Assembly: GCF_025244825.1 (NCBI RefSeq)
Contig: NZ_CP104263.1
Span: 3,348,001-3,412,000 of the forward strand
Reading direction: 5' to 3'
Length of the DNA stretch: 64,000 bases
Origin: Arthrobacter jinronghuae
GTDB lineage: Bacteria; Actinomycetota; Actinomycetes; Actinomycetales; Micrococcaceae
Shown: piece by piece, positions 11,102-51,058 of the stretch
Layout of the letters: each line of letters starts with the position of its first letter
Numbering within the stretch: position 1 is the stretch's first letter
Notes under the pieces: model-generated
Databases searched by the model: none
The model's input: only the letters and a program-made list of their open reading frames with translations
Told to the model about the DNA's origin: nothing
Position numbers and translations under genes: made by a program

Positions 11102-11150
11102 ACCGTCAGGGCCGCGCCGCCGCGGAGCGGGGCTGAACCGTCAGGGCCGC
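11092..11150. repeat. 24-bp direct repeat at the convergent ends of the FAH and LysR genes
   Basis: GCGGGGCTGAACCGTCAGGG and four further bases occur at 11092-11115 and again at 11127-11150. The first copy holds the FAH stop codon and the second the LysR stop codon, which suggests a small local duplication. No effect on either protein's core is expected. Confidence 0.7.
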
Positions 11151-26870: not shown

Positions 26871-26917
26871 GGTTTTGCTCCTTTGCAAAAGGTGGGGGGG
26901 AAGTGTCGGGGAAGGCT

Positions 26918-28435
<1,518 letters not shown>

Positions 28436-28461
28436 GTGGTGTTCCTCTTTCGTGTGTTTCT

Positions 28462-29169
28462 TTAGATCGGGGAAGGCGGCTGGTGGTTCTGGGCCAGGAA
28501 GGCGTTGAGCGTGTTGGTGCGGTGCGCGCGGGCGGCGTGCTCGACGTCGGGGGCCGGGGCTCCGGCGTCGATCAGATCCAGCAGCGCCTCGTGTTCCTGC
28601 ACCGACGCGTGTGCCCGGTCCGGGACGTACCGGAAGACGGAGGAGCGCATCCGGCCCAGCCGGTTCCAGCCCCGGTGGACCAGGTCCAGGATGTGCGGAT
28701 TGGGGCAGCGGGCGTAGAGCAGGGCGTGGAACTCGGTGTTCAGGGCGGTGAAGCGGACCGGGTCGAAGTTGTCCAGGACCTCGCGCATCTGGGTGTTGAG
28801 TTTGCGGGCCTGGGCCAGTTCCTCGGCGCTGATGTCAGGGGCGGCCAGGGCGGTGGCGGCGCCTTCGATGATGCTGAGGGTCTGCATGGTGTGCAGGTAC
28901 AGGTCCGGGTCGATGCCGGCCACGGTGGCGCCGACGTTGCGGACAAAGTGCACCAGCCCTTCGGCTTCGAGCCGGCGGATGGCTTCCCGGACCGGGACCA
29001 CGCTGAAGCCCATCTCCGTGGCGATGCTGCTGAGCACCAGCCGGTAGCCCGGGCTCATTTCCCCGCCGAGGATGCGGTCCTTCAGCTGTTCGTAGGCCTG
29101 CTCCGACTTGGAACCGGTGCCCGTGGCGGTGCTGCTGGCTTGCCCGGCACTGTTGGCTGCTGCGCTCAT
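28462..29169 (-). CDS. GntR family (FadR/FCD) transcriptional regulator
   Basis: 235 aa. The N-terminal winged helix (SEQAYEQLKDRILGG, then VPVREAIRRLEAEGLV) is followed by an all-helical FCD ligand domain with histidines in NTEFHALLY and EHEALLDL that typically bind a metal and a carboxylate ligand. The ATG at 29169 overlaps the upstream stop (ATGA). It is the second gene of the hpa operon and is likely its autoregulatory repressor, with a pathway dicarboxylate or 4-hydroxyphenylacetate as effector. Confidence 0.87.
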   Translation of the reverse strand: MSAAANSAGQASSTATGTGSKSEQAYEQLKDRILGGEMSPGYRLVLSSIATEMGFSVVPVREAIRRLEAEGLVHFVRNVGATVAGIDPDLYLHTMQTLSIIEGAATALAAPDISAEELAQARKLNTQMREVLDNFDPVRFTALNTEFHALLYARCPNPHILDLVHRGWNRLGRMRSSVFRYVPDRAHASVQEHEALLDLIDAGAPAPDVEHAARAHRTNTLNAFLAQNHQPPSPI

Positions 29170-30650
29170 GCCTGTTCCGCTGCCCAGGCCTCGTACTTTT
29201 GCTTCCAGGCGGCGTTCATCGGGTAGAGCCCGTCCACGCCGTGGCCGGCCTTCACCATTTCGGCGATGAATTCTTCCTGGTGTTCCTGCTTGATGCACGC
29301 CTCCACCAGCTCCTCGGCGATGGCCGGCGGGATGACGAGGATGCCGTCGTCGTCGGCCACGATGATGTCGCCGGGCTGCACGGTGGCGCCGCCGCAGGCG
29401 ATGGTGATGTCGGTGTCCCAGGGGACGTGTTTGCGGCCGAGGACCGCGGGGTGCGGGTTGGCGCAGTAGACGGGCAGGTCGATGCCGGCAACGGTGGAGT
29501 AGTCGCGAACGCCGCCGTCGGTGATGATGGCTGCGGCGCCGTTGTGCTTGGCGCGCAGGGCGAGGATGTCGCCCAAGGTGCCGGTGCCCTTTTCGCCGCG
29601 GGCTTCCATGACCAGGATTTCGCCTTCGCCGACGGAGTCGATGGCGCGTTTCTGCGCGTTGTAGCCGCCGCCGTGGGTCTTGAAGAGGTCCTCGCGGTTA
29701 GGCACGAAGCGCAGGGTGCGGGCGGTGCCGACCACCTTGCGGCCAGTGCGGGTGCCGGTGAGGCCGTCGATGGAGACGTTGTTCAGGCCGCGGGCGCGCA
29801 TCTGCGAGGACAGGGTAGCGGTGGCGACGGATTCCAGTTTCGCCTTCAGTTCTGGGGTGAGGGTTTTGGCCTGTTCCTGCGGTGTTTCCGGCTGCGGGGC
29901 GAGACCGGCCTTTTCCGCGGAACCCCATGCTTCTTCGCGCTGCTTGTCGTCGATTTTCGGCTGGGCGCCGAACCGTGCCAGCGGGGTGATGCCGTCGGTG
30001 ACCGTGGTGGCGAGGCGCCCGGTGGTCTTGTCCGTGCCGGGAACGTCGACTTCGACTTCGAGGCGGTCACCGGGGACGGCCACGGAGGCGCCGGCGGGGG
30101 TGCCGGTGAGGATCAGGTCGCCCGGTTCCAGGGTGAGCAGCTGGGAGAGATCGGCCACCAGCTGGGCGAAGGGGAAGAGCAGGTCCGCGGTGTTGTCGTC
30201 CTGCGTAAGTTCGCCGTTGACCCAGGTCCGGACGCGCAGGGCGGCGGGGTCGACATCGGCCGCGTTGAGGATGTGCGGGCCGACCGGGGTGAAGCCGTCG
30301 CCGCCCTTGGAGCGGAGGTTGGAGCCTTTGTCTGCCCAGCGCAGGTCGTACACGCCCAGGTCATTGCTGGCGGTCACTCCCCCGACGTAGCTCCACGCGT
30401 CTTCGATGGAGACCCGGCGGGCGGTCTTGCCGATGACGAGGGCGATTTCGCCTTCGAAGCCGAGCAGCTCGCAGCCGGCCGGGCGCTCCACGCTGCCGCC
30501 GGTCAGGGCCAGGGAGGAGCTCGGCTTGAGGAAGTAGGAGGGCTGTTCCGGGGTGCGTCCGCGTTCTGCTGCCCGTGAGGGGTAGTTGATGTGGACGGCG
30601 ATGACCTTGCCGGCCTGCTTCAGCGTGTCCTTGGTGGCGTCGTTGCCCAT
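29166..30650 (-). CDS. Fusion of an HpaG-like FAH domain and a RraA-like domain
   Basis: 494 aa, ATG at 30650 preceded by CAGGAGAG. Residues about 15-245 are an FAH-family domain (GFEGEIALVIGK metal ligands, TASNDLGVYDL, GDLILTGTPAG), like HpaG, the 5-oxopent-3-ene-1,2,5-tricarboxylate decarboxylase / hydroxymuconate isomerase. After a linker, residues about 275-480 are a RraA/HMG-aldolase-like domain (GGGYNAQKRAID, GTLGDILALRAKHNGAAAIITDGGVRD, GDIIVADDDG). No separate hpaF isomerase is present, so this protein may cover isomerisation and decarboxylation; the RraA part may add oxaloacetate-decarboxylase or retro-aldol activity. First gene of the hpa operon. Confidence 0.88.
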   Translation of the reverse strand: MGNDATKDTLKQAGKVIAVHINYPSRAAERGRTPEQPSYFLKPSSSLALTGGSVERPAGCELLGFEGEIALVIGKTARRVSIEDAWSYVGGVTASNDLGVYDLRWADKGSNLRSKGGDGFTPVGPHILNAADVDPAALRVRTWVNGELTQDDNTADLLFPFAQLVADLSQLLTLEPGDLILTGTPAGASVAVPGDRLEVEVDVPGTDKTTGRLATTVTDGITPLARFGAQPKIDDKQREEAWGSAEKAGLAPQPETPQEQAKTLTPELKAKLESVATATLSSQMRARGLNNVSIDGLTGTRTGRKVVGTARTLRFVPNREDLFKTHGGGYNAQKRAIDSVGEGEILVMEARGEKGTGTLGDILALRAKHNGAAAIITDGGVRDYSTVAGIDLPVYCANPHPAVLGRKHVPWDTDITIACGGATVQPGDIIVADDDGILVIPPAIAEELVEACIKQEHQEEFIAEMVKAGHGVDGLYPMNAAWKQKYEAWAAEQA

Positions 30651-30673
30651 GTCTCTCCTGGATGAAGTACGAA

Positions 30674-30735
30674 ATCGTATATCATCAGGCTTACATGTGG
30701 TGCGCGTCACGTCAAGGGTTTCGCCTTAATCGCAG
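30674..30735 (-). promoter_or_regulatory. Promoter region of the hpa operon with candidate GntR site
   Basis: ATGATATACGAT (minus strand, 30674-30685) is an imperfect palindrome 24 bases before the first hpa start and resembles FCD-type GntR sites. A TTGACG hexamer lies further upstream at about 30706-30711, but a matching -10 box at good spacing is not clear. Confidence 0.4.
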
Positions 30736-32826: not shown

Positions 32827-33020
32827 TGGTGACCATTCTGTGTGCGGAGTACCCGTCATATGCATCCAGCGTGAGAGGTTATGGCTTTGGCCTGCCAGAG
32901 ATTGTGAGATCACCATGGACCCTAGACCGTCCCATTTGAACCCGGCTGGCGAGGTTCCTCAAAATGCTAAGCAAACGAGGACGATTACGTCTTCGCCAAA
33001 ATAGCCCTAGGCTGTACCTC

Positions 33021-34682
33021 ATGGCAGATCCAGCACAATTCGACCACGACCGACTCGGTCACCTCCTGTCCGATATCCTGCTCAAAGTGCCTGAGTTTCA
33101 GCGGCGATTCTCGTGGCAGGAAAGCCATATATTGGAGTATTGGGCAGACATCGCAAGAGCAAAAGCCGCTAGCAACTCCTACTTCATGGGAACAGTCGTG
33201 CTGGCTGACTCTCCTGGCGACGACACCAGGAAATTGATCATCGATGGGCAACAGCGAATAACAACAACGGCGATCCTCTTTATTGCTATAAGGGATCGGC
33301 TGCGTGAACTGGGCCAGGAACGAGCCGCCCAGTCTGTCGAAGATACGCACCTAAGCGACTATGTTCTTCGAGAAGAGCAAACAGTGGCGAAACTCATTTT
33401 GAGTCCCGATGATCACGTGACCTTCAGCATCTTGCTAGAAGGAGGGCAGGTTGCCGCAAAAAATAACCTCGTCGGCACCGCCTATGTTCTGCTTAAAGAA
33501 CGCGTTGATGAGCTGGCGCCCACGGAAGAGGATTACAGATCGCTTATCGAGCTCGTCGCGTATCTCGATACGGACGTACAAGTCCTTCTGGCTGTTGCAA
33601 CAGGCCTGCCGGAGGCATACGTGATCTTCGAGACCCTTAACGACCGCGGGGAAGATCTCACCACAGCGGACCTCCTTAAGAACTTCCTCTTCAGTCAAGC
33701 CGGCAGCCAAGGAATCAACCACGCTCAAAGCACGTGGACCCGGCTAACGGCGAAATTCGATAAGCCAGAAGAATTCGTAAAGTTCCTGAGGTATGAATAC
33801 ATGTCACGGAAAGGGCACGTGACAAATCGAGGATTGTACAAGGCTCTCCAATCCGATGTCCGTGGTGGGACGACCGCGGTTCGCCGATACCTCGAGGGCG
33901 CGGATACGGCGCTCCAACGGTATATCGCACTTCGGGAACCAGATGACGCGTCTTGGTCTTCCCAAGCCGTGGAAGTCAAGGATTCCCTCCTAGCTTTCAG
34001 GAGGTTCGGATTTGAAGCAAGTATGCCTCTGTTGTTGGCGGCCTTCGGAACCTGGTCACACACGGACGCTACTCGTTTCGTTGACGTCGTCGCCGGTTGG
34101 TCCGTTCGGGCTTGGATCGCTGGCACACTAGGAGGAGGCGTTGCAGAGCGTGCGTTCTGCTTGGCAGCCGAGGCGGTCGCCACTGGTAAAGCCGCAACTG
34201 TCGCCGACGTCCGTATGTATATGAAGGACTTGGTTCCCGACGATGCGACGTTCAAGCAGGCCTTTGTTGGGTATGGTTCAGTGACGACAACCCGGGCCAA
34301 GTATTTGTTAGCGCGACTCGAGCGGCAATACCTCAGCGATCACGGACAACAGACGGATGCTATGCCGGACTGGAGCAGCAAGAGTGTGACGGTCGAACAC
34401 ATATTCGCAAAATCATCAAAGCGTGACGTGTTCGCAAGCGCCGAGGAATTCGAGAAGTTTTCTGTGTTACGTGATCAACTGCAGAATCTAACGCTCCTGG
34501 AGCGAACTCTGAACGGCGGCCTTGAAGATAAACCGTTTGACCAAAAGGTGGACACGTATGGCCAGTCAGTGTTTGCACTTACACGCTTGCTCAGCGAGAA
34601 CGGGGCAACATGGGGTTTCGACGAGGCTGAAGTCCGTTCTTCCATGCTTTCAGCTCTAGCAGTAAAGGCCTGGCCGAAGTAA
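33021..34682 (+). CDS. DUF262/HNH protein, single-chain GmrSD-like restriction factor
   Basis: 553 aa. The N-terminal DUF262 (GmrS-like) part shows VPEFQRRFSW, IIDGQQRITT (the DGQQR nucleotide/ParB-like motif) and FETLNDRGEDLTTADLLKNFLF. The C-terminal DUF1524 (GmrD-like) part has SVTVEHIFAKSS, the His-centred HNH-type nuclease motif, and LQNLTLLE. GmrSD enzymes are NTP-dependent type IV restriction systems that cut modified phage DNA. The ATG at 33021 (MADPAQFD) precedes the conserved domain. Its base composition is lower in GC than the flanks, and it lies between mobile-element remnants and a tRNA-like gene, a typical defence-island position. Confidence 0.87.
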   Translation: MADPAQFDHDRLGHLLSDILLKVPEFQRRFSWQESHILEYWADIARAKAASNSYFMGTVVLADSPGDDTRKLIIDGQQRITTTAILFIAIRDRLRELGQERAAQSVEDTHLSDYVLREEQTVAKLILSPDDHVTFSILLEGGQVAAKNNLVGTAYVLLKERVDELAPTEEDYRSLIELVAYLDTDVQVLLAVATGLPEAYVIFETLNDRGEDLTTADLLKNFLFSQAGSQGINHAQSTWTRLTAKFDKPEEFVKFLRYEYMSRKGHVTNRGLYKALQSDVRGGTTAVRRYLEGADTALQRYIALREPDDASWSSQAVEVKDSLLAFRRFGFEASMPLLLAAFGTWSHTDATRFVDVVAGWSVRAWIAGTLGGGVAERAFCLAAEAVATGKAATVADVRMYMKDLVPDDATFKQAFVGYGSVTTTRAKYLLARLERQYLSDHGQQTDAMPDWSSKSVTVEHIFAKSSKRDVFASAEEFEKFSVLRDQLQNLTLLERTLNGGLEDKPFDQKVDTYGQSVFALTRLLSENGATWGFDEAEVRSSMLSALAVKAWPK

Positions 34683-34922: not shown

Positions 34923-35315
34923 CTTTGGCTCAATCGAATGGTACTCCCGGAGCTCACCAACCGAGGACTGTGGCGTTATGAGAGTGCCCTAAGCACGACC
35001 CGATCCCAGTCCAAGTTCCGGCGAGGCATGGCGGATTTCTCGATGGATTCCATAGTAGAAACTAAGCGTAGTGCGTGGGTCCCTATACGAAGACTCCACG
35101 ACCGCGGCTCGATACCCAACACTCCTTAGCTCTCGCATTTGATGTCTGCATCTTCTCGGGCTTCAATCTCACGCAATCAGCGCTTTGACGAGCCGCTACT
35201 GGTGTGACCTCGCACGCTCGCGGAATATCTCCTACCTCGCTAACGGTTGCCCTGCATATACAACCTGCAACCGGGAGAACCCGAGTACGGCTGCACGCAA
35301 CAAAAGGAACCCCAC
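34923..35315. other. Intergenic stretch without a recognisable gene
   Basis: About 390 bases between the terminator and the OYE-family gene. Frames are short and none matches a family I recognise. The segment around 34980-35130 has several overlapping broken frames with a faintly coding look on the minus strand, possibly a decayed transposase or element gene, but I cannot name it. Confidence 0.4.
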
Positions 35316-36395
35316 TTGAAACTCTTTACCCCGCTGACCGTCGGCACCATGGAACTGCCCAACCGCCTCGTCATGGCACCGATGTCCCGCGTGCGTGCCG
35401 ACCGCAACGGCGTGCCCACCGACATCATGGTCGAGCACTACCGCCAGCGCGCCTCCATGGGCCTGATCATCACCGACGGCATCTACCCCTCCTTCACCGG
35501 CCAGGGCAACGCCCTGATGCCCGGCCTGGTCACCGAGGAACACGTCGCCGGCTGGAAGCGCGTCACCGACGCCGTGCACGAAGCCGGCGGCCGGATCGTC
35601 GCCCAGCTGATGCACTCCGGCCGCGTCGCGCACGAGAACATCAATGGCGGACGCCAGCCACAGGCCCCCAGTGCCATCGCGGTTGAAGGCATGGCGCACA
35701 CCTACGACGGCAAGCAGCCCTTCCCGGTGCCGCACGCCCTCACCGAAGCCGAACTCCCCGGCGTCGTGCAGGACTTCGTCTCCGCCGCGCAGAACGCGAT
35801 GAAGGCAGGGTTCGACGGCGTCGAGCTGCACGGTGCCAACGGGTACCTGCTGCAGGAATTCCTCTCCCCCGTCTCCAACACCCGCACAGACAACTACGGC
35901 GGATCGCCGGAGAACCGGGCCCGCCTGGTCATCGAGGCCTTCCGTGCCGTGGCAGAGGCCGTCGGCGCCGAGCACACCGGCATCCGCATCTCCCCGGAAC
36001 ACAACATCCAGGGCGTGCTGGAAACCGACCGCGCCGACGTTACCGCCACCTACACCGCTCTGGTGGACGGCATCGCCGATCTGAAGCCGGCTTACCTGAG
36101 CATCCTGCACGCGGACCCGGCCGACGAGCTGGTCCAGGGCCTGCGCCGCCGCTTCGGCGGCCCGGTGCTAATGAACACAGGCTTCGGCACGGTCACCACC
36201 CGCGAGGACGCCGTCATGCTGCTCGAAGAGAACCTGGCCGACGCCGCCGTCGTCGGCCGCCCCGTGATCGCCAACCCGGATCTGGCCCGCCGCTGGCAGG
36301 AGGACCACCCGCTGAACGAGATCGACCAGACCACCGTCTACACCGACGGCGCCGCCGGCTACACGGACTACCCGGAACTGGCTCCGGTTTCGTAG
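35316..36395 (+). CDS. Old yellow enzyme family NADH:flavin oxidoreductase
   Basis: 359 aa. The TTG at 35316 is preceded by AAAAGGA at seven bases and begins directly with the family N-terminus KLFTPLTVGTMELPNRLVMAPMSR. Other OYE marks: QLMHSGR, the substrate-binding pair in ELHGANGYLLQEFLSP, the NYGGSPENRAR segment, and the phosphate-binding C-terminal VVGRPVIANPDLARRW. FMN-dependent reductase of activated C=C bonds or N-ethylmaleimide, similar to NemA. A terminator hairpin follows at 36407-36439. No link to neighbours is evident. Confidence 0.88.
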   Translation: MKLFTPLTVGTMELPNRLVMAPMSRVRADRNGVPTDIMVEHYRQRASMGLIITDGIYPSFTGQGNALMPGLVTEEHVAGWKRVTDAVHEAGGRIVAQLMHSGRVAHENINGGRQPQAPSAIAVEGMAHTYDGKQPFPVPHALTEAELPGVVQDFVSAAQNAMKAGFDGVELHGANGYLLQEFLSPVSNTRTDNYGGSPENRARLVIEAFRAVAEAVGAEHTGIRISPEHNIQGVLETDRADVTATYTALVDGIADLKPAYLSILHADPADELVQGLRRRFGGPVLMNTGFGTVTTREDAVMLLEENLADAAVVGRPVIANPDLARRWQEDHPLNEIDQTTVYTDGAAGYTDYPELAPVS

Positions 36396-36406
36396 CTCGA
36401 ACAAAT

Positions 36407-36439
36407 GACGGCCCTTCCGCATACCGCGGAGGGGCCGTC
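36407..36439 (+). terminator. Hairpin terminator after the OYE gene
   Basis: GACGGCCCTTCCGC (36407-36420) pairs with GCGGAGGGGCCGTC (36426-36439) with one mismatch around a short loop. It separates the OYE gene from cofD. Confidence 0.65.
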
Positions 36440-36488
36440 GTCGTATCCTGCATCAGGAACGGGCTACGAAAAAGGTAACGGGGGGCGC

Positions 36489-37472
36489 ATGAAGAGAATA
36501 ACGATCCTCGCCGGAGGGGTAGGCGGCGCGCGGTTCGTCCGCGGCGCCCGGACCCTGGCACAGGCAACCGGGGCGGAAATCACCGTCGTGGCCAACACCG
36601 GGGATGATCTGTGGCTGACGGGTCTGCGGGTCTGCCCCGACCTGGATTCCATCATGTACTCCCTGGGCGGAGCCAACGATACGGAACGCGGATGGGGCAG
36701 GGCCGGCGAATCCGAGCGCGTGAGTGCGGAACTGACCGCCTACGGTGTCGGCTGGCCCTGGTTCACCCTGGGAGACCTTGACCTGGGCACCCATATTGCC
36801 CGGACCGCCCTTCTTCGGGAGGGCCTGACCCTCACCGAAGTGACCCAACGGCTCTGTTTGCGGTGGAATCCGGGTGTCCGTCTCCTGCCGGCTACGAACG
36901 ACGAGGTCGAAACCCACGTCGAAATCGTCGACGGAAGCGGCCGGACGCAGTTGATTCACTTTGAGGAGTGGTGGGTGCGCCACCGCGGCAACGTCCCGAC
37001 CCGCCGGTTCGTCCACCGGGGTCTCGAATCCTCCTCCGCCGCACCGGAAGCCGTGGAGGCGATCCTGTCAGCCGACGTCGTCCTGCTGGCACCCTCCAAT
37101 CCGGTGGTGTCGGTCGGAACGATCATTGCCCTGCCGGGCGTGGCGGCTGCCCTTCGGACGACGGCGGCTCCCGTGATCGCCGTATCGCCCATCATCGGTG
37201 GCTCGCCCGTGCGCGGGATGGCCGACATCTGTCTGGGGGTCATCGGGGTCGACGTCTCCGCTGCGGCCGTGGGGCAGCATTACGGGGCACGGACACAGGG
37301 CGGCCTCCTGGACGGCTGGCTGGTCGATCCGGTTGACGCCGGTGAGCTCCCGCTGCTGGAGCGTGCCGGGATCCCCGCACGGTCACTTCCGCTGTGGATG
37401 AACACCGACGAGGATTCGGCGGCCATTGTTGCCGGAGCGCTCCAACTGGCCGGCGAGGTGAGGGGACCTTAG
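36489..37472 (+). CDS. cofD: 2-phospho-L-lactate transferase (F420 biosynthesis)
   Basis: 327 aa, ATG at 36489. The CofD/FbiA fold is shown by LAGGVGGARFVRG at the N-terminus, VVANTGDDLWLTGLRVCPDLDSIMY, DLDLGTHI, APSNPVVSVGTI and VIAVSPIIGG. The enzyme joins FO to a phospholactyl (or phosphoenolpyruvyl) group from the GDP intermediate made by CofC to give F420-0 or its dehydro form. Its end overlaps the convergent cofC gene by four bases. It starts the F420 cluster of this window; the FO synthase (fbiC/cofGH) is not here. Confidence 0.92.
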   Translation: MKRITILAGGVGGARFVRGARTLAQATGAEITVVANTGDDLWLTGLRVCPDLDSIMYSLGGANDTERGWGRAGESERVSAELTAYGVGWPWFTLGDLDLGTHIARTALLREGLTLTEVTQRLCLRWNPGVRLLPATNDEVETHVEIVDGSGRTQLIHFEEWWVRHRGNVPTRRFVHRGLESSSAAPEAVEAILSADVVLLAPSNPVVSVGTIIALPGVAAALRTTAAPVIAVSPIIGGSPVRGMADICLGVIGVDVSAAAVGQHYGARTQGGLLDGWLVDPVDAGELPLLERAGIPARSLPLWMNTDEDSAAIVAGALQLAGEVRGP

Positions 37473-38101
37473 CCGGTCTCCGCAGCTGAACCGGCCGGTC
37501 CGGTGGCAGCAACTGCGAGGGTTTTCAGGGTCTCCGGCCCGAGCCGGTTCCGCAGGGCCGCAGCTAGATCCTCTGCCGTGTCGATATCCCGGCGCACCGC
37601 GGACGCCTGCGGCACCGGGAGGACCACGTGACCCTGCCGTTCGTGGCGCCACCGGGAACCGGGACCAAACCGCGGGACGATCAGGCCGCCGAGGCTCGTG
37701 AGCATGGTGGTGCCGTGACCGGAATGATCGGCGACCATGGCGCGCTCGTGTCGGCCGGCATCTGCGAGGACGGCGTCGAACTCGTCCGCCGTCAGGCCGG
37801 GCAGGTCCGCCGTGACGACGGCAACCTTGCCGGGACCCGCGCCGTGGAGTCCCGCCGCGACCGCCGGATTGAGTCCGAGCCCCGGATCATCCACGAAAAG
37901 CGTACCGGCGGGGAAAGCGGTACGGACGCGAACATCGCTCGTGACGACGATGATGGTGCCCGCTCCACGGCTGTTCCGGACCGCGGAAAGCGTATCGAGT
38001 GCAAAGGCCAGCGCCAGGTCGGCTACACCGCTGCGGTCCCGCCGGAGGCGGGACTTGGCGGTATCAAGACTCTTGACGGGTATAACGACGTTCCAGCTCA
38101 T
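37469..38101 (-). CDS. cofC: 2-phospho-L-lactate / phosphoenolpyruvate guanylyltransferase
   Basis: 210 aa. CofC/FbiD features: VVIPVKSLDTAKSRL at the N-terminus (nucleotide-binding), VDDPGLGLNPAVAAGL, VAVVTADLPGL with the metal-binding Asp, and a GRHERAMVADHSGHGTTML stretch. It activates 2-phospholactate or PEP with GTP for CofD. The gene converges with cofD and shares four bases with its end. A C-terminal tail of about 25 residues is Ala/Gly-rich. Confidence 0.9.
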   Translation of the reverse strand: MSWNVVIPVKSLDTAKSRLRRDRSGVADLALAFALDTLSAVRNSRGAGTIIVVTSDVRVRTAFPAGTLFVDDPGLGLNPAVAAGLHGAGPGKVAVVTADLPGLTADEFDAVLADAGRHERAMVADHSGHGTTMLTSLGGLIVPRFGPGSRWRHERQGHVVLPVPQASAVRRDIDTAEDLAAALRNRLGPETLKTLAVAATGPAGSAAETG

Positions 38102-38239
38102 GGCATGCGCCTGCCCCGCCCTAGTAAGAGTCTTGGTACAGAGAAGGACGAAGCGCCCGGGAATTATTCCCCTGCTCCCCCGCCACCGCCGTGGGTAGCG
38201 TCCGCCGTGGGTGGCGTCCGCGGCGGCTGGCCCGCCGGC

Positions 38240-38632
38240 TCAGGCACTCTTGGCGGAGACCGCTTCTCCGGCGTCGTCAGTCTCCCAGCGGCGGGCGTAG
38301 CCGGCGATGGGCTGCAGGGAGCGCAGCAGGTCGATGCCGCGCGCACTCAGCCGGTACCGGACGCTGACCGGGATGGTGGGCTCGACCAGGCGTTCGACCA
38401 GGCCCGCGGCCTCGAGTTCGCGAAGCCGGAGCGTGAGCATCCGCCCGGACAGCCCCTGGACCCGGTGCTCGATTTCGGTGAACCGTTCGGCTCCGGTCCC
38501 GAGGGCAAGCAGAATCCCGCTGGCCCAGCGCCGTCCCACGACCTCCATCACGCCGAGCAGGCGCCGGCACTCCTCATCACTGATGCTTAGCGGAGGGTTT
38601 GCGCGGCCCGTCTCAGAAGTAGTCACGCACAA
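38240..38632 (-). CDS. HxlR family transcriptional regulator
   Basis: 130 aa. The winged helix has MEVVGRRWASGILLAL, the recognition segment FTEIEHRVQGLSGRMLTLRLRELEAAGLVER and the wing VRYRLSARGIDLL. It is divergent from the LLM-FAD fusion gene with 58 bases between starts, and a palindrome (38636-38648) lies in that gap, so it probably regulates itself and the F420 operon. HxlR proteins commonly respond to aldehydes, quinones or redox stress. A GTG one codon downstream could also serve as start. Confidence 0.87.
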   Translation of the reverse strand: MCVTTSETGRANPPLSISDEECRRLLGVMEVVGRRWASGILLALGTGAERFTEIEHRVQGLSGRMLTLRLRELEAAGLVERLVEPTIPVSVRYRLSARGIDLLRSLQPIAGYARRWETDDAGEAVSAKSA

Positions 38633-38635
38633 AAA

Positions 38636-38648
38636 GTAAGCGGCTTAC
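38636..38648. promoter_or_regulatory. Palindrome between hxlR and the F420 operon
   Basis: GTAAGCGGCTTAC is a perfect 5-3-5 inverted repeat just upstream of hxlR and 42 bases before the divergent gene's start. GTAAG-type half-sites are common in HxlR operators. Confidence 0.6.
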
Positions 38649-38690
38649 CTACGGATTGTCAATGGCAATGGTGGCGCGCATGCTGTGGCC

Positions 38691-41033
38691 ATGTCAGATT
38701 ACCTGCACCCGCTGCGCTTCGGCAGCTTCATCACCCCGTCCGCCGCCATCCCTCAACTGCCGGTCGACCGGGCCCTGCTCAGCGAGGAGCTCGGCCTGGA
38801 CCTGGTCACCTTCCAGGACCATCCCTATCAGGCCCAGTTCCTGGACACCTGGACCCTGCTTTCGGTAGTCGCCGCCCGTACCGAACGCATCCACGTCTCC
38901 GGCAATGTGCTGAACCTGCCCCTGCGCCAGCCCGCCGTGCTGGCCCGTTCCCTCGCCAGCCTGGACCTGCTCAGCGACGGCCGCGCGGAGCTCGGCATCG
39001 GCACCGGCGGGTATTTCGAGGCGATCGCGTCGATGGGCGCCCCGCTGCTGGCCATCCCGGACGCGGTCGGCGGGCTGGACGATGCGCTGGACATCATCCG
39101 GGGCATCTGGGACACCGCGGATCCGACGCCCCTGCACGCGGGAGGAAAATACCACCACGTCACAGGCGTGCAGCGGGGCCCGACACCTGCACACCGCATC
39201 CCCATCTGGGTGGGCGCCTACAAACCCCGGATGCAGGGGATCATCGGGCGCAAGGGTGACGGCTGGCTGCCAAGCCTTCCCTGGATGAAGCAGGGCGACG
39301 TCGAACGCGGCAACGAGGTGATCGACAAGGCCGCCCGCAAGGCCGGACGCGATCCGCGCGAGATCACCCGGATGATGAACATCACCCCGCAGTACCACGC
39401 CGAGGCCCTGGCCGAGCTGGCAACCGATCACGGGGTGAGCGTGTTCATCGTAGCCACCGACGACCCGGATGAGCTCCGCCGGTTCGCGCAGGTCACCGCT
39501 CCCGCAATCCGGTCCCGGGTGGAGAAGGCCCGCCGGCGCAGCGGCTCCCCGGCCACCGCAGCCGCCGCCGCCGCACCCGCTGCCCCCGCAGTCCCCGCAG
39601 CCGCCGCCGCGCCAGCCTCCCCGGAAGCACCCGCCCGGTCCTTCCGCGACGATCCGATCCCCGACGCCCTCGTCCCGCGGGTCCTGTTCCCCGGCGACCG
39701 GGGGTACGCCCGCTACACCGCCAGCTACTTCCGCGGCGCCCGGCCCGGCGTCGTCATCCGTCCTGAAACCCCCACCGAAGTGCAGGAGGCCGTGCGCTTC
39801 GCCGCCCGCCACCGGGACGTGCCGCTGGGCATGTTCAGCGGCGGACACGGCCTGTCCGGCCGGTCCCTGAACACCGGCGGCATCGTCCTCGCGCTCGATG
39901 CACTGAACACCATCACCCTGGGCAGCGGCAACCGGGTCCGGGTGGGGCCCGGCGCCCGGTGGGGCGAGGTGGCGCAGGCCCTGGCACCGCACGGGCTGGC
40001 GATCACCTCCGGCGACTACGGCGGCGTCGGCGTCGGCGGCCTGGCGACGGCGGCGGGGATCGGCTGGTTCGTCCGCGAGCGCGGGCTGACGATCGATTAC
40101 CTGCGCTCCGTGGACATCGTGACCGCCGACGGTGAGCTCGTGCACGCCAGCGCAGAGGAGAACAGCGACCTGTTCTGGGCGGTGCGCGGCGCCGGGGCGA
40201 ACTTCGGCGTGGTCGTCTCGTTCGAGTTCGAGGCGCACCCGGTGTCCGAGCAGGTGGGGTTCGCGATGCTCCTCTTCGCGCCGGACGACGTCGCGGCCTT
40301 CCTCCAAGGGTGGGGCACCACCATCGAGGGGTCACATCCCACGGTGACCGGATCCCTGATGATCAGCCCCGGCAGCCCCGGCTCGACCGCCGTCCAGGCA
40401 CTGATCGTGGTGGATTCCTCCGATCCGGAGACCGTGATCGAGCGGCTCCAGCCCTTCGCAGCCCTCGCGCCGCTGGCGAACCAGTCTGTGCAGATGGTGC
40501 CGTACGCGGCTTTGCTTGAAGTACCGCCGGAGGGCGATCAGCACGGCCGTGGCGAACCGCGCAGCCACTCCGGGCTGGTGCGGCACCTGAGCGCCGACGT
40601 CGCGCGTGTCCTGACAGACCTGCTCGCCGCCGAGTCCTCCTTTATCCTGAGCATCCGCTCTGCCGGCGGTGCCGCGGCGAACCTCCCGGCGGAGGCCACC
40701 GCGTACGGCTGGCGGGACGCGAACTTCGTGATCGCCATGCTGGGCGGACGCGGCGACCAGGTGGCCCTGCGTTGGGCGGAACTGGTGCCGCTGCTGGAAG
40801 GCATGTACCTGAGCTTCGAGACCGACACCGGGCCCGACGTCGTCGCCCGCGCCTTCCCGCCCGGGAACCTGCAGCGCCTGCGCGCGCTGAAGGCGGTGTG
40901 GGACCCCACAGGCCTGTTCCGCGACAACTTCTACATCGCCCCGGAGCAGGAGCCGGCGGACCAGGCGCCGGAACTCGAGCCGGCGGACCAGGTGTCGGCG
41001 ACCACCGAGCCCGCCGCGGGAGCCGCACGGTGA
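38691..41033 (+). CDS. LLM oxidoreductase fused to a BBE/VAO-type FAD oxidase
   Basis: 780 aa. Residues about 1-280 are a luciferase-like TIM barrel ([69 protein letters not shown]), a class using F420 or FMN. An Ala/Pro-rich linker (about 280-318) leads to a PF01565 FAD domain with SGGHG near residue 383, the histidine normally bound covalently to FAD. The second flavin-binding cysteine of bicovalent enzymes is not seen ([11 protein letters not shown] there). A BBE tail ([13 protein letters not shown]) closes the fold. The ATG at 38691 is used; a GTG two codons upstream exists. It overlaps cofE by GTGA. The two halves may hand electrons or a product between flavins. Confidence 0.88.
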
Positions 41034-41851
41034 CCGGGGGCGACACCGACGCACCAGCCAGCCCGGCGCGCACCATCCCGCCGCGGGAACTGTCCGTCTG
41101 GGCGCTTCCCGGCATTCCGGAGATCGCGGCGGGCGACAACCTTGTCGCGTTGATCCTTGCCGCCGCCGCGGCACGGCCGCTGATGGACGGGGACATCCTG
41201 GTTGTGACGTCCAAGATCGTCTCCAAGGCCGAGGGGCGGCTGGTGCGGGCCGAGGACCGCGAGGCAGCGATCAGCGCGGAGACGGCCCGGGTGGTCGCCA
41301 CCCGCAACGGCACCCGGATCGTTGAGAACCGTCTGGGCATTGTGGGAGCGGCCGCCGGGGTGGACGCCTCCAACGTTCCCGCGGGCACGGTGCTGCTGCT
41401 GCCGGAGGATCCCGACCGCTCGGCCCGGATCCTGGCCGCCGGCATCCGCGCCGCGGGCCCGCACATCGGGGTGATTCTCAGCGACACGATCGGCCGGCCG
41501 TGGCGGGAGGGGCAGACCGACATCGCCATCGGAGCCGCCGGTGTCCGGGTGTTCGATGAGCTCGAGGGCACCCCGGACTCGGCCGGCCGGCCCCTGGCCG
41601 TGACCCGCCCGTGCCTGGCCGACGAGATCGCCGCCGCCGGGGACCTGGTCAAGGGCAAGACCTTCGGGCTGCCCGTGGCCGTAGTTCGCGGTTACGCGGA
41701 CGCGGTCGGCCCGCTGGACCTGCCCGGCGCCCGGTCCATCATCCGCACCTCAGAGACGGACATGTTCCGGTTCGGCAGCGACGAGGCCTACGCAGCCGGT
41801 TTCGCCGCGGGCCTCAACGCCGTCGCCGACACAGAAAGCAGCAGATCATGA
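41030..41851 (+). CDS. cofE: Coenzyme F420-0:L-glutamate ligase, stand-alone
   Basis: 273 aa, GTG start overlapping the previous TGA. CofE features: [58 protein letters not shown] (GTP/metal site) and [13 protein letters not shown]. The enzyme adds glutamates to F420-0. In mycobacteria the equivalent FbiB carries an extra nitroreductase-like domain that reduces the dehydro intermediate and extends the tail; here that domain is absent, so another enzyme may supply it. It is coupled by ATGA to fgd. Confidence 0.9.
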
Positions 41852-42867
41852 CACTGACCCTGGGTTACAAGGCCTCCGCAGAACAGTTCGGCCCGCGGGA
41901 GCTGGTGGAGCTGGCCGTCGCCGCCGAAGCCCACGGCTTCTCGTCCGCGGCAGTCAGCGACCACTTCCAGCCCTGGCGGCATCAGGGCGGACACGCCCCG
42001 TTCTCCCTGGCCTGGCTCGCCGCGGCCGGGGAACGCACCTCGCATATCCGGCTGGGCACCAGCGTGCTCACGCCCACCTTCAGGTACAACCCCGCCGTCA
42101 TTGCCCAGGCCTTCGGCACGCTGGGGCTTCTCTACCCGGACCGGATCTGGCTGGGGGTGGGGACCGGTGAGGCGCTGAACGAAATCGCGACCGGGTTCCG
42201 CGGGCCCGGAGAACAGGACTGGCCGGAGTTCTCCGAGCGGTTCGCCCGGCTGCGCGAGGCGGTGCGCCTGATGCGGGAGCTGTGGAACGGGGACCGGGTG
42301 AGTTTCGACGGCGACTACTACTCCACCTCCAACGCCTCCGTCTACGACAGCCCGGCCGGTGGCATACCCGTCTACATCGCAGCCGGCGGGCCCGTCGTGG
42401 CGAAATATGCCGGCCGCGCCGGGGACGGGTTCATTGCCACCTCCGGCAAGGGGCACGGGCTGTATGCCGAGCAGCTGATGCCGGCGCTGGCTGCGGGCGC
42501 GGACGACGCGGGCCGGGATCTATCCGGGATGGACCGGATGATCGAAATCAAGCTCTCCTATGAGCACAGCCGGGAGAAGGCGTTGGAAAACACCCGGTTC
42601 TGGTCTCCGCTGTCCCTCTCAAAGGAGCAGAAGCACAGCATCACCGACCCGGTGGAGATGGAACGCGCCGCAGACGCGCTCCCGTTGGAGCAGATCGCGC
42701 GGCGGTGGATCGTGGGCACGGATCCCGACGACGTCGTCGAGCGGATCACCGAATACGTGGACCTTGGGTTCAACCACCTTGTGTTCCACGCCCCCGGCCA
42801 CGACCAGCTCCGGTTCATGGACCTTTTCCAAAGCGACCTCAAACCACGTCTGGAAGGACTGCGTTGA
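41848..42867 (+). CDS. fgd: F420-dependent glucose-6-phosphate dehydrogenase
   Basis: 339 aa. Very characteristic [40 protein letters not shown] and [16 protein letters not shown]39, W43 and E108 align one position before the known catalytic His40, Trp44 and Glu109 of mycobacterial FGD1. It oxidises glucose 6-phosphate to 6-phosphogluconolactone and reduces F420 to F420H2, the main supply of reduced cofactor in actinobacteria. Translation is coupled to cofE (ATGA) and to the following binding-protein gene (TGATG). Confidence 0.94.
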
Positions 42868-43859
42868 TGCCCCGCCGCATCCGCTTGTTGATGCTTCCCG
42901 TGCTGGCCGCCGTCCTGCTCGCCGGGTGTGCGGCCCCGTCCGCCGGGGCGCGGCCGGACCCGCAGCCCGACGCCGCGGCGGGCTTCCCGTTCACCGTGGA
43001 CAACTGCGGCACACCGGTCACCTTCGAGCAGCCGCCAGAGGAGGTGGTGGCGATCAAATCCACGTCCATCGAAATGCTGCTGGCGCTGGGCCTCGAGGAC
43101 CGGATCTCCGGCGTCGCCTTCCCCGACGGCCCGTACGCCGCAGGGTGGGCGCCGGAGACGGAACCACCGCTGATTTCCGAGCGTGTTCCCGGACAGGAAG
43201 CGGTCCTGGCCCTGGAACCGGACCTCGTGTACGCCGGCTGGGAGTCCAACCTCACCTCCGACGGCGCCGGGGACCGCGGGACGCTGCACCGCCTGGGCAT
43301 CAACACCCTGGTATCCCCGGCGGCCTGCCAGGGTGCGGATTATCAGCCCGCCCCACTGGTCTGGGAGGACATCTGGGCGGAGATCAGCCTGATGGGACGC
43401 GTCTTCGACGTGCCCGACGCCGCCGACACCCTCGTTGCCGGGCAGCAGCAGCGCTTGGCCGCCGTCGCGCCCGACAGCCGCGGGCTCACCGCCCTCTGGT
43501 ACAGCTCCGGCAACGACTCCCCGTACGTGGGGGCGGGCAGCGGAAATCCCCAGCTGGTCATGGACGCCGTCGGGCTGGAAAACGTTGCCGCCGACGTCCC
43601 CACGCCGTGGGCCTCGCTGTCCTGGGAAGCGGTGGCCGATGCCGACCCGGAGGTGATCGTCCTCATCGACGCCGCGTGGACACCGGCGGACAAGAAGATC
43701 GCGGAGCTGGAAGGCAACCCCGCCACCGCCGCACTCACGGCGGTGCGGAACCGGCAGTACCTCATCCTGCCGTTCCCGGCCGGTGAGGCGGGCGTCCGCA
43801 GCCTCGAGGCCGTCGAAACCCTCCAGGAACAGCTCGCGCACCTGGACGTCGCTCCGTGA
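42867..43859 (+). CDS. Substrate-binding lipoprotein of a putative F420-0 ABC transporter
   Basis: 330 aa with a signal peptide ending in the lipobox LLAG-C (residue about 20) and a BtuF/FhuD-like fold (EEVVAIKSTSIEMLLALGLEDRISGV, then ALEPDLVYAGWE). Position inside an F420 operon, with the permease and ATPase following, matches the transporter type annotated in TIGRFAMs as putative F420-0 ABC transporters (TIGR03868/03869/03873). The substrate has not been proven; a siderophore or corrinoid cannot be excluded from sequence alone. Confidence 0.82.
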   Translation: MPRRIRLLMLPVLAAVLLAGCAAPSAGARPDPQPDAAAGFPFTVDNCGTPVTFEQPPEEVVAIKSTSIEMLLALGLEDRISGVAFPDGPYAAGWAPETEPPLISERVPGQEAVLALEPDLVYAGWESNLTSDGAGDRGTLHRLGINTLVSPAACQGADYQPAPLVWEDIWAEISLMGRVFDVPDAADTLVAGQQQRLAAVAPDSRGLTALWYSSGNDSPYVGAGSGNPQLVMDAVGLENVAADVPTPWASLSWEAVADADPEVIVLIDAAWTPADKKIAELEGNPATAALTAVRNRQYLILPFPAGEAGVRSLEAVETLQEQLAHLDVAP

Positions 43860-44923
43860 CGGCAGCGGCGACGTCGGCCGGGACGACGGCGAGCGGGACG
43901 ACGCCGGCCGGGAAGCGCGGGCGCCGGGCAGCGGCCGGGATTCCGCTGCTCGGTGTCCTCCTGGTCGCCGGCATGTTTGCCGCCGTCACGGTCGGCCCGG
44001 CCGACATCTCGGTGGCCGACGTCTGCCGGAGTGTGGCCTCGCACCTGTCCCTTGCGGAGTCGCCGCTCTCGGCGACGCGGGACGCGATCATCTGGGAGCT
44101 GCGCCTGCCACGAGTGCTGACCGCCGCCTTCATAGGGGCGGGACTGGCCGTCTGCGGCGTCGTGCTGCAGGCGAGCACCCGCAACCCGTTGGCCGACCCC
44201 TATCTGCTCGGGCTGTCCTCCGGCGCTTCCCTCGGTGCCGTGCTCGTGATCGTGGCCGGTGTCAGCGTCGCCCTTCCCGTCGCGGCGTTCACCGGCTCCC
44301 TTCTGGCGCTGGCCGGGACCCTGCTGCTGGCCGGGTCGGCCGGGCCGCAGAGCCCCTCCCGCACCGTCCTCGCCGGGGTGGCCGTATCCTCGGCGCTTTC
44401 CGCGCTCACCAGCCTGGTCATCTTCTGGAGCGCCACCGGGGACAGCTACCGGGAGATCCTAGGCTGGCTCCTCGGCTCCCTCGCCGGTGCCAGCTGGAGC
44501 GGAACGGCGATCGCCGCGGCGGCGTTCCTCGCCCTGGGCATCCCCCTCGCCCTGTCCGCGAACACGCTCAACGCGTTTGCGTTCGGTGACCGCACCGCCC
44601 GCTCCCTGGGGATCAACACCGGCGCGGCGCGCGGCCTGCTCCTGGCGGCCAGCGCAGTGCTCACCGGCGCCCTTGTGGCGGTGAGCGGTTCGATCGGCTT
44701 CGTCGGCCTGCTCATCCCGCATGCCGCGCGGCTGCTCACCGGCCCCGGGCACCGGCTGCTGCTTCCGGTCGCCGCCCTCGGCGGGGCGCTCCTGCTGGTC
44801 GCCGCCGACACGATTGCCCGGTCCGCCTTCGACCCGCGGGAGCTTCCGGTGGGCATCATCACGGCGATTCTCGGTGCCCCTGCCTTTGCCCTGCTGATGC
44901 TGCGCGCACGGCGGTCGCTGTGA
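43856..44923 (+). CDS. FecCD-type permease of the putative F420-0 ABC transporter
   Basis: 355 aa, GTG start overlapping the previous stop. About nine to ten membrane helices. FecCD hallmarks: RLPRVLTAAFIGAGLAVCGVVLQASTRNPLADPYLLGLSSGASLGA early on and SGSIGFVGLLIPHAARLLTGPGHR near the ATPase-contact loop. The long Thr/Ala-rich N-terminus is typical of GC-rich relatives. Co-translated with the ATPase (GTGA). Confidence 0.87.
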   Translation: MTAAATSAGTTASGTTPAGKRGRRAAAGIPLLGVLLVAGMFAAVTVGPADISVADVCRSVASHLSLAESPLSATRDAIIWELRLPRVLTAAFIGAGLAVCGVVLQASTRNPLADPYLLGLSSGASLGAVLVIVAGVSVALPVAAFTGSLLALAGTLLLAGSAGPQSPSRTVLAGVAVSSALSALTSLVIFWSATGDSYREILGWLLGSLAGASWSGTAIAAAAFLALGIPLALSANTLNAFAFGDRTARSLGINTGAARGLLLAASAVLTGALVAVSGSIGFVGLLIPHAARLLTGPGHRLLLPVAALGGALLLVAADTIARSAFDPRELPVGIITAILGAPAFALLMLRARRSL

Positions 44924-45693
44924 ATACGGTGCAGGTGGATGGCCTGTCCTTCGCACGCGGCGGCCGTCTCGTCATCGACGGTGTCACCGCCGTCGCCCCC
45001 GCCGGGTCCGTCACCGCGGTCATCGGGCCCAATGCCGCGGGCAAGTCCACGCTGCTGCAGCTCCTCGCCCACCTGGAAAACCCCACCAGCGGCACCGTTC
45101 GCCTGGGTAACACGGACCTGGCCTCCCTGCCGCGGCGGCGCCGCGCACGGTACGTCGCCTTTATCGACCAGCACTCCGCGGCCGACCTTCCCCTGGCCGT
45201 GCAGGACGTCGTTATGCTCGGCCGGACGCCCCGGCTGGGCCGTCTTGCCGCGCCCGGCACCGAGGATCACGACGTCGTCGGCGCCGCCCTGCTCCGGACC
45301 GGAGCCGCGCAGCTCGCCCGCCGGGTTTTTGCCGAGCTCTCTGGCGGGGAACGTCAGCGGGTCCTCCTGGCACGCGCCCTCGCCCAGGAGCCGACGCTCC
45401 TGCTCCTGGACGAACCGACCAACCACCTCGATGTCCGCGCGCAGCTCGAAACCCTCGAACTGCTCCGCGATCTCGCGCGGGACGGACTCACAGTGATCAC
45501 CGCCCTGCATGACGTGAACCTGGCTGCACGGTATGCCGACCGAATCATTGCCCTCGACGACGGCCGGGTCGTCGCCGCCGGTGAAACGTCGTCGGTCCTG
45601 TCCGCCGCGCTGGTCTCCGACCTGTACCGGGTCAACGCGACCCCTCTTGGGGAGGGAAGGTTCTTCTCCTTCTCCCTCCCCGGCGTTTCCTGA
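44920..45693 (+). CDS. ATPase of the putative F420-0 ABC transporter
   Basis: 257 aa. Walker A GPNAAGKST, Q-loop DQHSAADLPL, signature LSGGERQRV, Walker B LLLLDEPTNHLD and switch histidine in ITALHDVNLA. FepC/BtuD class. It is the last gene of the six-gene operon that starts with the LLM-FAD fusion. Confidence 0.9.
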   Translation: MNTVQVDGLSFARGGRLVIDGVTAVAPAGSVTAVIGPNAAGKSTLLQLLAHLENPTSGTVRLGNTDLASLPRRRRARYVAFIDQHSAADLPLAVQDVVMLGRTPRLGRLAAPGTEDHDVVGAALLRTGAAQLARRVFAELSGGERQRVLLARALAQEPTLLLLDEPTNHLDVRAQLETLELLRDLARDGLTVITALHDVNLAARYADRIIALDDGRVVAAGETSSVLSAALVSDLYRVNATPLGEGRFFSFSLPGVS

Positions 45694-49502: not shown

Positions 49503-50507
49503 TCATTTCTTACCCGGCTTCGACGGCTGCGACGAGCGCTCCTCACCGGAATAGTGCGCTTCAATATCCTTACTCCAAGCACGCGCGTATAGGCCAAGCG
49601 CGCCCTGTTCCCGGAGCGGGAAGCCCAGCCGGTTGAGTGCTAGCCCGCTAGCCCCCATAGCCAACTGCTGCGCACTGCGACTGATGCGTTGCTTGTCTGC
49701 CCGGTACAAATACTCATCGATGGCCCTCGCCCAGCGTTTCCGCCAGATATCGACTGCCGACTCCGAGGCAAGGGCGGCCATCACCCTATGCGCAGGCATA
49801 ACCCGGGGTGCCATCTGGGCCATCATTGCCGTGCGTGCCTGCCCGGAGTGCGAACCAAAAGAACCTGTGCAGGCGTGCAGATGAGCGTTCCAGTAGTAGT
49901 CCCAGCTAGTGGTTCTGCGGTCGGGCCACACAGCCGAGCGCGGTCCGCGCATCATGGCGTGGCCGGTGTCGAAGAGAAGCAGGGCGGCCAGCATCGAGCG
50001 CATGTTGAGGCGGGGAAAACGGTTGACTGCCCACAAAGCCAGGTCCGAGGACAAGTCGGCAACCTCAGAAACCAGTTCCAAGCCCTTCGGTCCACCGAAC
50101 CGGGCAAATGCCGCTTCCATTACTTCGTGCGCTGGTTCGCCTGATCGGGGTGGATAAGTGATGTCCGGCCACCGGGAGATCTTCACGGGCCCCAGTGAGG
50201 CAGCGCTTTCGTCTGCCAACGCGTACACAAACTTCCAAAGCCGCTTAACGACGTCGTCGGCGGCACGCACATGCAGGTGCACGGCCGGATGGGCGGATTC
50301 CAGCCTGCGGGAAAAGCCAAACCAGCGCTCTCCCCCGGTCCTCGTTCCGGAAATCAGCGGAGCAACAATGCGGCGGACTATTTCATCACCCGCATCCCTG
50401 CGCTCCGGCTCTACAGTCAACATGGACCACACAGCCGTGCTGTCGTGCTGCACAGGACGGGTAGCTGCCTCTCGATGACCAGTGTTCGATTGCATTACGC
50501 GGCTCAT
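49503..50507 (-). CDS. Lantibiotic dehydratase C-terminal (SpaB_C / thiopeptide-type) domain protein
   Basis: 334 aa, ATG at 50507 with GGGGATG upstream. Features recalling PF14028: an N-terminal AVWSMLTVEPERRDAGDEIVRR, WFGFSRR (the W-F-x-x-R strand), HPAVHLHVRA, then a middle FGGPKGLELVSEVADLSS leading to a helical half with repeated Trp/Tyr residues. In thiopeptide and lanthipeptide pathways this fold carries the glutamate-elimination or cycloaddition activity, but the large tRNA-dependent dehydratase partner is not encoded in this window. A small ORF at 50691-50918 lies upstream on the same strand. Alternatively it is an unrelated hypothetical protein. Confidence 0.6.
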   Translation of the reverse strand: MSRVMQSNTGHREAATRPVQHDSTAVWSMLTVEPERRDAGDEIVRRIVAPLISGTRTGGERWFGFSRRLESAHPAVHLHVRAADDVVKRLWKFVYALADESAASLGPVKISRWPDITYPPRSGEPAHEVMEAAFARFGGPKGLELVSEVADLSSDLALWAVNRFPRLNMRSMLAALLLFDTGHAMMRGPRSAVWPDRRTTSWDYYWNAHLHACTGSFGSHSGQARTAMMAQMAPRVMPAHRVMAALASESAVDIWRKRWARAIDEYLYRADKQRISRSAQQLAMGASGLALNRLGFPLREQGALGLYARAWSKDIEAHYSGEERSSQPSKPGKK

Positions 50508-50690
50508 ATCATCCCCAAAATGATCGTCTTGACTTCGGTAGGTGTGTTCCCAACAGTGCGTTCGCAACAGTGTGTTGCCAAAATGTGAATGTCCATACGG
50601 GTTCTAAGAAATTTCCCATTTGCGTCAGGGACTCTTTTCCTGCGCACGCTGACCGACTATGGGTTTGCGAACCCTCCACGCGGGCTGCAC

Positions 50691-50918
50691 CTACTCGTAC
50701 CGCACCGGCTTCGACACGGTCACTACGCGTACCTGCGGCGTCGCTTGCTCCAGGAGGACCTGGTCGACATCGTCGTCGTCGGACGCTCGGCCCTCGCCAC
50801 CCGGGCCTGCGGTTGTCAGTATCTTCACGTTGATGACCGTCGTGGCGCCGCCGGTACCCGCGGCGATGGCTTTTGGGCAGTTCATATAGGCCGCAGAACC
50901 AAACCCAGGAGTTTTCAT
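50691..50918 (-). CDS. Small hypothetical protein next to the SpaB_C-like gene
   Basis: 75 aa. Codon usage is GC-ending over most of its length, which supports real coding, at least from the internal ATG at 50885 (MNCPKAIAAG). There is an acidic run (SDDDDVDQVLLEQ) followed by a basic tail ending VRYE. It could be a RiPP precursor with a leader-like acidic segment for the neighbouring enzyme, though the tail is poor in Ser/Cys. The start is uncertain: AAAGGGG abuts the ATG at 50918. Apart from this ORF, 50508-51058 shows nothing else I can support. Confidence 0.4.
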   Translation of the reverse strand: MKTPGFGSAAYMNCPKAIAAGTGGATTVINVKILTTAGPGGEGRASDDDDVDQVLLEQATPQVRVVTVSKPVRYE

Positions 50919-51058
50919 TCCCCTTTAATTGCCACCGTGAAACAACAGCAAGACGACAGGGAACGAATTCCGCAATTTTGTTATCCAAAATTTACCGTGC
51001 TGTACACTGCGGACTATCTGATCCCCTTCCCTTCTGTTTCGAAAGACCACATTCACGT

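Follow-up and report, generated by a model that had tools for sequence, protein, structure and literature searches.

A recurrent, mainly actinobacterial LLM-BBE fusion protein as a possible electrophile-inducible, two-cofactor oxidoreductase

Why should one polypeptide join a luciferase-like (LLM) barrel to a BBE-type FAD oxidase? The question is raised by a gene of Arthrobacter jinronghuae that lies in the 64,000-nucleotide stretch analysed here (contig NZ_CP104263.1, positions 3,348,001 to 3,412,000, assembly GCF_025244825.1), which we call the window. Each domain, like each cofactor chemistry, is already known, and the pairing itself is present in databases under automatic names. We put forward, at somewhat short of an even chance, that the protein is an electrophile-inducible, tethered two-cofactor oxidoreductase, with reduction by F420H2 and oxidation by FAD and O2 on the same chain. 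The gene and its parts, in window coordinates, are as follows.

38691..41033, + strand: LLM-BBE fusion gene, 780 residues from ATG 38691
38691..39554, + strand: LLM (luciferase-like) barrel, predicted F420-type, with an invariant DHPY motif at residues 45-48
39555..39638, + strand: disordered Ala/Pro linker, about residues 291-318
39639..40952, + strand: BBE/VAO-type FAD oxidase domain, closest solved fold EncM

The reading frame is uninterrupted from GTG 38685 (or ATG 38691, the start that agrees with the starts of homologues) to 41033; fusion residues are counted from GTG 38685. Pfam places Bac_luciferase (PF00296) at residues 27-255 (4.9e-44, family cut-off passed), in agreement with the barrel fold, FAD_binding_4 at 354-488 (2.6e-28; 98.9 bits against a cut-off of 26.4) and the BBE domain at 717-748 (22.6 bits against 20.6), and the latter two domains together with the fold match assign the oxidase half to the BBE-like VAO/PCMH enzymes. 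Residues 291-314, rich in Ala and Pro, have pLDDT values below 50, and the interval from residue 284 to 324 varies in length from 14 to 47 among 118 aligned homologues. The first-pass annotation, which had proposed two complete redox domains in one frame and an Ala/Pro linker between them, was therefore right on both counts. It had also named a sequencing frameshift at the linker as a possible objection; this is excluded, since the domains are joined in the same way in the sister locus L037 (97% identical) and in the 118 aligned homologues. A search of about 5.8 billion proteins gave 7996 scored candidates, 2893 of them with E values of 1e-30 or better, and the LLM and FAD Pfam domains occur together in all of the best 120 of these 2893 (46-97% identity). 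The remaining objection, that homologues are always separate genes and this one a one-off, fails accordingly, and with it the artefact reading as a whole.

A genome scan confirmed at least 556 stretches encoding a relative. The best 80 of these loci come from Arthrobacter, Nesterenkonia, Microbacterium, Herbiconiux, Nocardioides, Nonomuraea, Amycolatopsis, Actinoplanes, Jiangella and others, and include five Chloroflexi MAGs. Judged from these sequences, the LLM-BBE fusion is a real and recurrent two-part redox enzyme, mainly actinobacterial. No description of the pairing was found in the titles and abstract openings of the open-licence PMC papers that were searched, and the word "berberine" does not occur in the accessible portion of an F420 review (PMC8498797). 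A mobile context was considered and rejected: of three plasmid records that matched, the two from Streptomyces do so in the oxidase half alone (in one, no adjacent LLM gene is annotated; the other is unannotated), and the third belongs to Nonomuraea and is 11.9 Mb long.

A tree built from 97 LLM sequences has one split (support 0.858) that parts 85 fused barrels from 12 standalone ones, for which a single fusion event is the simplest account. Standalone relatives exist for each half, and standalone LLM genes adjoin the fusion in, for example, G037, G048, G051, L057, L073, L104 and L114. A triple LLM-LLM-FAD fusion of 1065 residues (P0107), filed under an assembly of the yeast Metschnikowia, is probably a bacterial contaminant; with the adjoining standalone genes, it indicates that the barrel has been used repeatedly. 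In Micromonospora rosaria (L101, about 9980-11344), the LLM half has been lost in frame and the opening codons of the fusion remain together with its oxidase half, so the two halves can work apart. Separately, the LLM half in Arthrobacter citreus (L043/G022) lies in two frames, through either mutation or sequencing error.

These observations bear on the main rival explanation, that the chain carries two independent activities with different substrates, and that fusion fixes only their stoichiometry and co-induction. A linker that is disordered and variable in length is what such an arrangement would lead one to expect, as are the standalone occurrence of both halves and the barrel-less Micromonospora protein, which keeps its HxlR regulator and AzoR neighbour (both described below). 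Against this, the fused barrels all lie on one side of a single split, and the join has therefore been kept through long divergence; the two halves also diverge together (r = 0.77), yet shared phylogeny alone yields such a correlation. On balance we consider independent activities unlikely, though with a real share of the probability. For the tethered oxidoreductase that we favour, the same linker points to plain tethering rather than a fixed electron path, which bears on the first-pass idea that a product or electrons pass between the sites.

Which cofactor the barrel uses is central to this proposal. For the LLM half, every one of the 11 top-ranking distinct PDB sequences is named as an F420 enzyme (several are variants of one protein), and F420 enzymes fill the top nine VIA-align rows of the fold ranking, with FMN-type LLM folds about 1-2 Z lower and partly tied; the nearest sequences and folds are thus F420-dependent rather than FMN-dependent, by a small margin in the case of the folds. 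The match to the TIGR03619 (Rv2161c) LLM subfamily reaches 120.6 bits against a cut-off of 166.9, and for none of the 25 NCBIfam families listed does either half of the fusion score above the cut-off. The glutamate of the GTGE motif has a catalytic role in Fgd. Its position in the fusion (residue 109) is Gly in 104, Ala in eight and Trp in seven of 119 sequences, which argues that the barrel is not an Fgd-type dehydrogenase.

Gene content across genomes points the same way. Among 59 genomes, with carriers of the LLM subfamily (fused or alone) defined by E below 1e-55, a threshold set after a wide gap was seen, a cofE match is present in 25 of 25 carriers against seven of 34 non-carriers (Fisher 1.1e-10, a statistic that ignores phylogeny). 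One of those seven, G047, holds a 57-residue piece of the LLM subfamily. Counting only cofE matches over the cut-off gives 24 of 25 against four of 34, and inside the genus of the window the figures are 16 of 16 and 0 of 12. The two genes are unlinked in, for example, G007, G011, G023 and G025. For the fusion alone, cofE is found in 10 of 10 fusion genomes and 22 of 49 others (p = 0.0012, again ignoring phylogeny), and the co-occurrence is thus a property of the LLM subfamily more than of the fusion. In a second set of 62 genome entries, 57 came from fusion loci, and 54 remained after removal of two coordinate duplicates and the barrel-less L101; cofD is present in 45 of these 54 genomes with both halves, and the other nine all have cofE, so that every one of the 54 has one gene or the other. 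This co-occurrence supports the use of F420 by the fusion.

A barrel that uses FMN, as a monooxygenase-type LLM fed by an AzoR-like flavin reductase and with F420 genes nearby by chance, is the alternative to be weighed here. Many members of the LLM family are FMN enzymes and FMN folds are close, an AzoR neighbour is found in five of 80 loci, and adjacency to cofE and fgd is rare. The F420 enzymes are nevertheless nearest in both sequence and fold, and the co-occurrence with cofE, including the within-genus contrast, runs against chance; we regard an FMN barrel as very improbable. The earlier suggestion of a possible F420H2 link is instead supported by solved relatives, fold ranking and co-occurrence alike, and we treat the barrel of the tethered oxidoreductase as probably F420-linked.

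In the window itself, the fusion sits in an island of F420 genes, given here with the OYE gene that lies upstream of it.

35247..36395, + strand: OYE-family FMN reductase (N-ethylmaleimide reductase model, 309 bits, below the cut-off of 403)
36405..37472, + strand: cofD, with homology from residue 32
37469..38101, - strand: cofC
41030..41851, + strand: cofE, F420-0:glutamate ligase, overlapping the end of the fusion by 4 bp
41848..42867, + strand: fgd, F420-dependent glucose-6-phosphate dehydrogenase (TIGR03554, 610 bits), overlapping cofE by 4 bp
42864..45693, + strand: putative F420-0/FO ABC transporter, comprising binding protein, permease and ATPase (TIGR03868, TIGR03869, TIGR03873)

The position at which homology begins suggests that cofD probably has a later true start. 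The TIGR03873 match is below its cut-off, and the transporter genes continue the row from fgd with short overlaps. Enzyme and cofactor supply are therefore probably co-expressed at this locus. The first-pass annotation had placed the fusion in an operon with cofE and fgd, which holds for the window but not in general: homologous cofE and fgd genes lie near the fusion in two other loci (L037 and L039) among the best 80 of at least 556, and we reject the idea that the fusion is generally part of an F420-biosynthesis operon. Elsewhere in the window we noted 4-hydroxyphenylacetate-type meta-cleavage genes (HpaD, HpaE and an FAA-hydrolase/RraA fusion) with a GntR regulator (25767-30710, - strand), a GmrSD-type restriction endonuclease in a lower-GC stretch with a pentapeptide-repeat protein nearby (32964-34682, + strand), a weak match to Lant_dehydr_C, the C-terminal type of lantibiotic dehydratases (49503-50567, - strand; 28.2 bits versus 24.4), and a CAP-domain protein bearing S-layer homology repeats (50873-52951, + strand).

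Several hosts appear to obtain F420 by salvage. Six of the nine cofD-less fusion genomes (G007, G011, G016, G022, G291 and the genome of L039) contain cofE, an Fgd-type gene and a whole putative "F420-0" ABC transporter together; G314 shows two transporter genes out of three, close to the end of its stretch, and G295 and G313 have cofE and an Fgd-type gene only. In seven stretches from genomes without a cofD match (L117-L122 and L128), cofE, an Fgd-type gene (37% identical to the fgd of the window) and an ABC transporter form a compact cassette, consistent with F420-0 salvage. With models that were positive in actinobacterial controls, CofH gave no match in any of 21 genomes and CofG none in eight non-control genomes. 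The genome of the window (G000) carries cofC, cofD, cofE, fgd and the putative "F420-0" ABC transporter (36405-45693) and lacks a match to FO synthase, and it probably imports FO. The occurrence of the fusion in bacteria that apparently rely on F420 salvage alone suggests that the fusion may be one reason for that salvage.

The oxidase half can be read from a few positions, two of which are located as follows; conservation was counted in 119 aligned sequences, the window and 118 others.

39846..39848, + strand: His388 of the SGGHG motif, aligned with the covalent-FAD His of EncM; His in 119 of 119
40026..40028, + strand: Val448, at the oxygen-gatekeeper position (Thr139 of EncM, Leu182 of AtBBE-like 15); Val in 119 of 119

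All 119 sequences share D45, H46, P47, Y48, N74, V75, H388, D444, V448, R658, R677 and Y708. The covalent His expected in SGGHG is thus borne out by its alignment with EncM and its invariance, and an 8-alpha-histidyl FAD linkage is predicted. A second, Cys linkage had been reported as not seen, and no Cys occurs at position 445 in any of the 119 sequences (Tyr in 87, as in the window, His in 17, Ser in seven, Ala in six and Phe in two), so the bicovalent BBE type does not apply. In the available part of the EncM study (PMC7662398), H78 is the flavin-linked His, many EncM structures lack a visible bond, and oxidase activity is seen in the T139V variant. The accessible sections of work on plant BBE-like enzymes (PMC4513132) assume a single covalent link in groups with a comparable second-Cys position, describe a gatekeeper Val as defining oxidases among BBE-like enzymes, and give an approximately 400-fold rise in reoxidation for AtBBE-like 15 L182V. 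Flavin-N5-oxide chemistry of the EncM kind is disfavoured, as the position of Thr139 is Val in all 119 sequences. Taken with H388 and the non-Cys residue 445, this suggests that the FAD half is a His-linked oxidase without N5-oxide chemistry.

Upstream of the fusion lie a candidate regulator and operator.

38240..38632, - strand: HxlR-family regulator, divergent, with one conserved Cys; start codon uncertain
38636..38648, no strand assigned: GTAAG-N3-CTTAC palindrome, candidate HxlR operator

In 39 of the best 80 of at least 556 loci, the fusion has a divergent HxlR gene no more than 270 bp away, and no neighbour cluster is larger than that of the HxlR proteins (36 of 80 loci), the next clusters reaching 13. 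The 13-bp palindrome of the window, GTAAGCGGCTTAC, recurs exactly or nearly so between HxlR gene and fusion. A stricter palindrome pattern is found in 14 of 41 loci with an HxlR gene anywhere, in none of 39 without one and in 10 of 4000 control windows. If up to two mismatches to GTAAG-N3-CTTAC are allowed, the palindrome is present in 37 of 38 HxlR-type sequences (35 of 36 when the window and its sister L037 are left out), in 0 of 42 others and in 50 of 4000 control windows. Those 42 of the 80 sequences in the palindrome set lack the HxlR arrangement; for L043 this is solely an effect of the frameshift, by which the start is hidden. One Cys position is kept in 35 of 36 aligned HxlR proteins, a set that includes a few distant or non-adjacent ones (e.g. 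L042, L080 and L115), and 32 of the 36 have a single Cys overall. With a divergent HxlR gene, a conserved Cys and a shared palindrome, the locus resembles an HxlR electrophile-response unit, with putative induction by electrophiles. This unit is present at about half of the best 80 loci, which is not to say half of the family. Four Chloroflexi loci have a different gene at the HxlR position, MarR-like to judge from its sequence. A viral scan with the HxlR protein, which bears on the regulator and not on the fusion, returned no relative.

Downstream neighbours of the fusion differ with distance from the window. In the 10 loci at least 60% identical, an AzoR-like gene directly follows the fusion in five (L039, L041, L044, L051 and L101) and an OYE gene in two (L038 and L043), giving AzoR or OYE in seven of the 10, versus no AzoR and one OYE (L055, 47%) in the 70 more distant loci. 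The OYE gene upstream of cofD in the window and L037 is homologous to the one that immediately follows the fusion in L038 and L043. A family-wide downstream operon partner was sought and not found: Pfam analysis of 20 of 52 downstream genes returned a single OYE, two flavodoxin-like reductases, four genes without a family and otherwise unrelated functions; the gene calls behind it were rough and overlooked the AzoR genes in L041 and L044.

This neighbourhood also bears on another rival, in which the fusion has a specialised role in catabolism or in a natural-product pathway, in the manner of EncM, GilR or the F420 LLMs from antibiotic pathways, rather than in stress detoxification. The closest solved relatives of the oxidase half are EncM and McrA (mitomycin radical oxidase), and the best NCBIfam matches, far below cut-off, are bagremycin/ferroverdin FAD oxygenases. 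Set against these are the invariant Val in place of EncM Thr139 and the neighbour clusters themselves, in which HxlR prevails and no biosynthetic gene is widely shared; such a specialised role therefore seems improbable to us.

Taken together, the domain, F420 and HxlR findings suggest an inducible enzyme whose two tethered sites process a reactive aromatic or carbonyl compound, and the fusion may be part of a stress-switched system for reactive chemicals. In the mechanism that we propose for the electrophile-inducible oxidoreductase, the one-Cys HxlR repressor would sense a thiol-reactive electrophile, quinone- or aldehyde-like, and release transcription. The LLM barrel would then reduce an activated C=C or C=O by hydride from F420H2, regenerated by Fgd, and the BBE half, using its His-linked FAD and passing electrons on to O2, would dehydrogenate the same compound or its product, giving H2O2. 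The flexible linker would hold the sites close, such that an unstable intermediate could cross the short distance between them, with no direct electron path linking flavin and deazaflavin. A bolder version, which we think quite unlikely, is that of a self-contained oxidise-and-reduce catalyst, in which the FAD/O2 site takes a hydride and the tethered F420H2 site returns one to another face or position, isomerising, deracemising or detoxifying the substrate in one chain under electrophile-sensing HxlR control, with some hosts importing F420 precursors to run it. Because the fusion is widespread and conserved, and its regulator, operator and inducer class are predicted, the function of the protein is directly testable, and if both sites act on one molecule it would be a natural one-pot redox cascade, useful for biocatalysis.

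Comparison with known systems places each part of this proposal. The proteins of Arthrobacter, Microbacterium, Nonomuraea and others called "LLM class flavin-dependent oxidoreductase" in databases belong to the same fusion family; these names were given automatically and carry no mention of a fusion, cofactor test or function. The F420-dependent LLM reductases and dehydrogenases Mer, Fgd, Adf and FGD2, the nearest sequences and folds to the LLM half, share its barrel fold and an Asp-His motif past the second strand. Unlike Fgd, with its GTGE Glu, the fusion barrel has Gly, Ala or Trp at that position; it also falls under the TIGR03619 cut-off and is joined to an FAD oxidase. Compared with EncM, McrA and 6-hydroxy-D-nicotine oxidase, the fusion adds an LLM barrel, and it has Val448 where EncM has Thr139. 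Finally, HxlR regulators are known to sense quinones, as in YodB and CatR of Bacillus, and YodB, CatR and QorR repress azoreductase or quinone reductase genes until electrophiles attack a Cys. The units described here are alike in having a divergent HxlR gene, a single conserved Cys, an intergenic palindrome and, in several genomes, AzoR or OYE; they differ in that the gene under predicted HxlR control is the LLM-BBE fusion.
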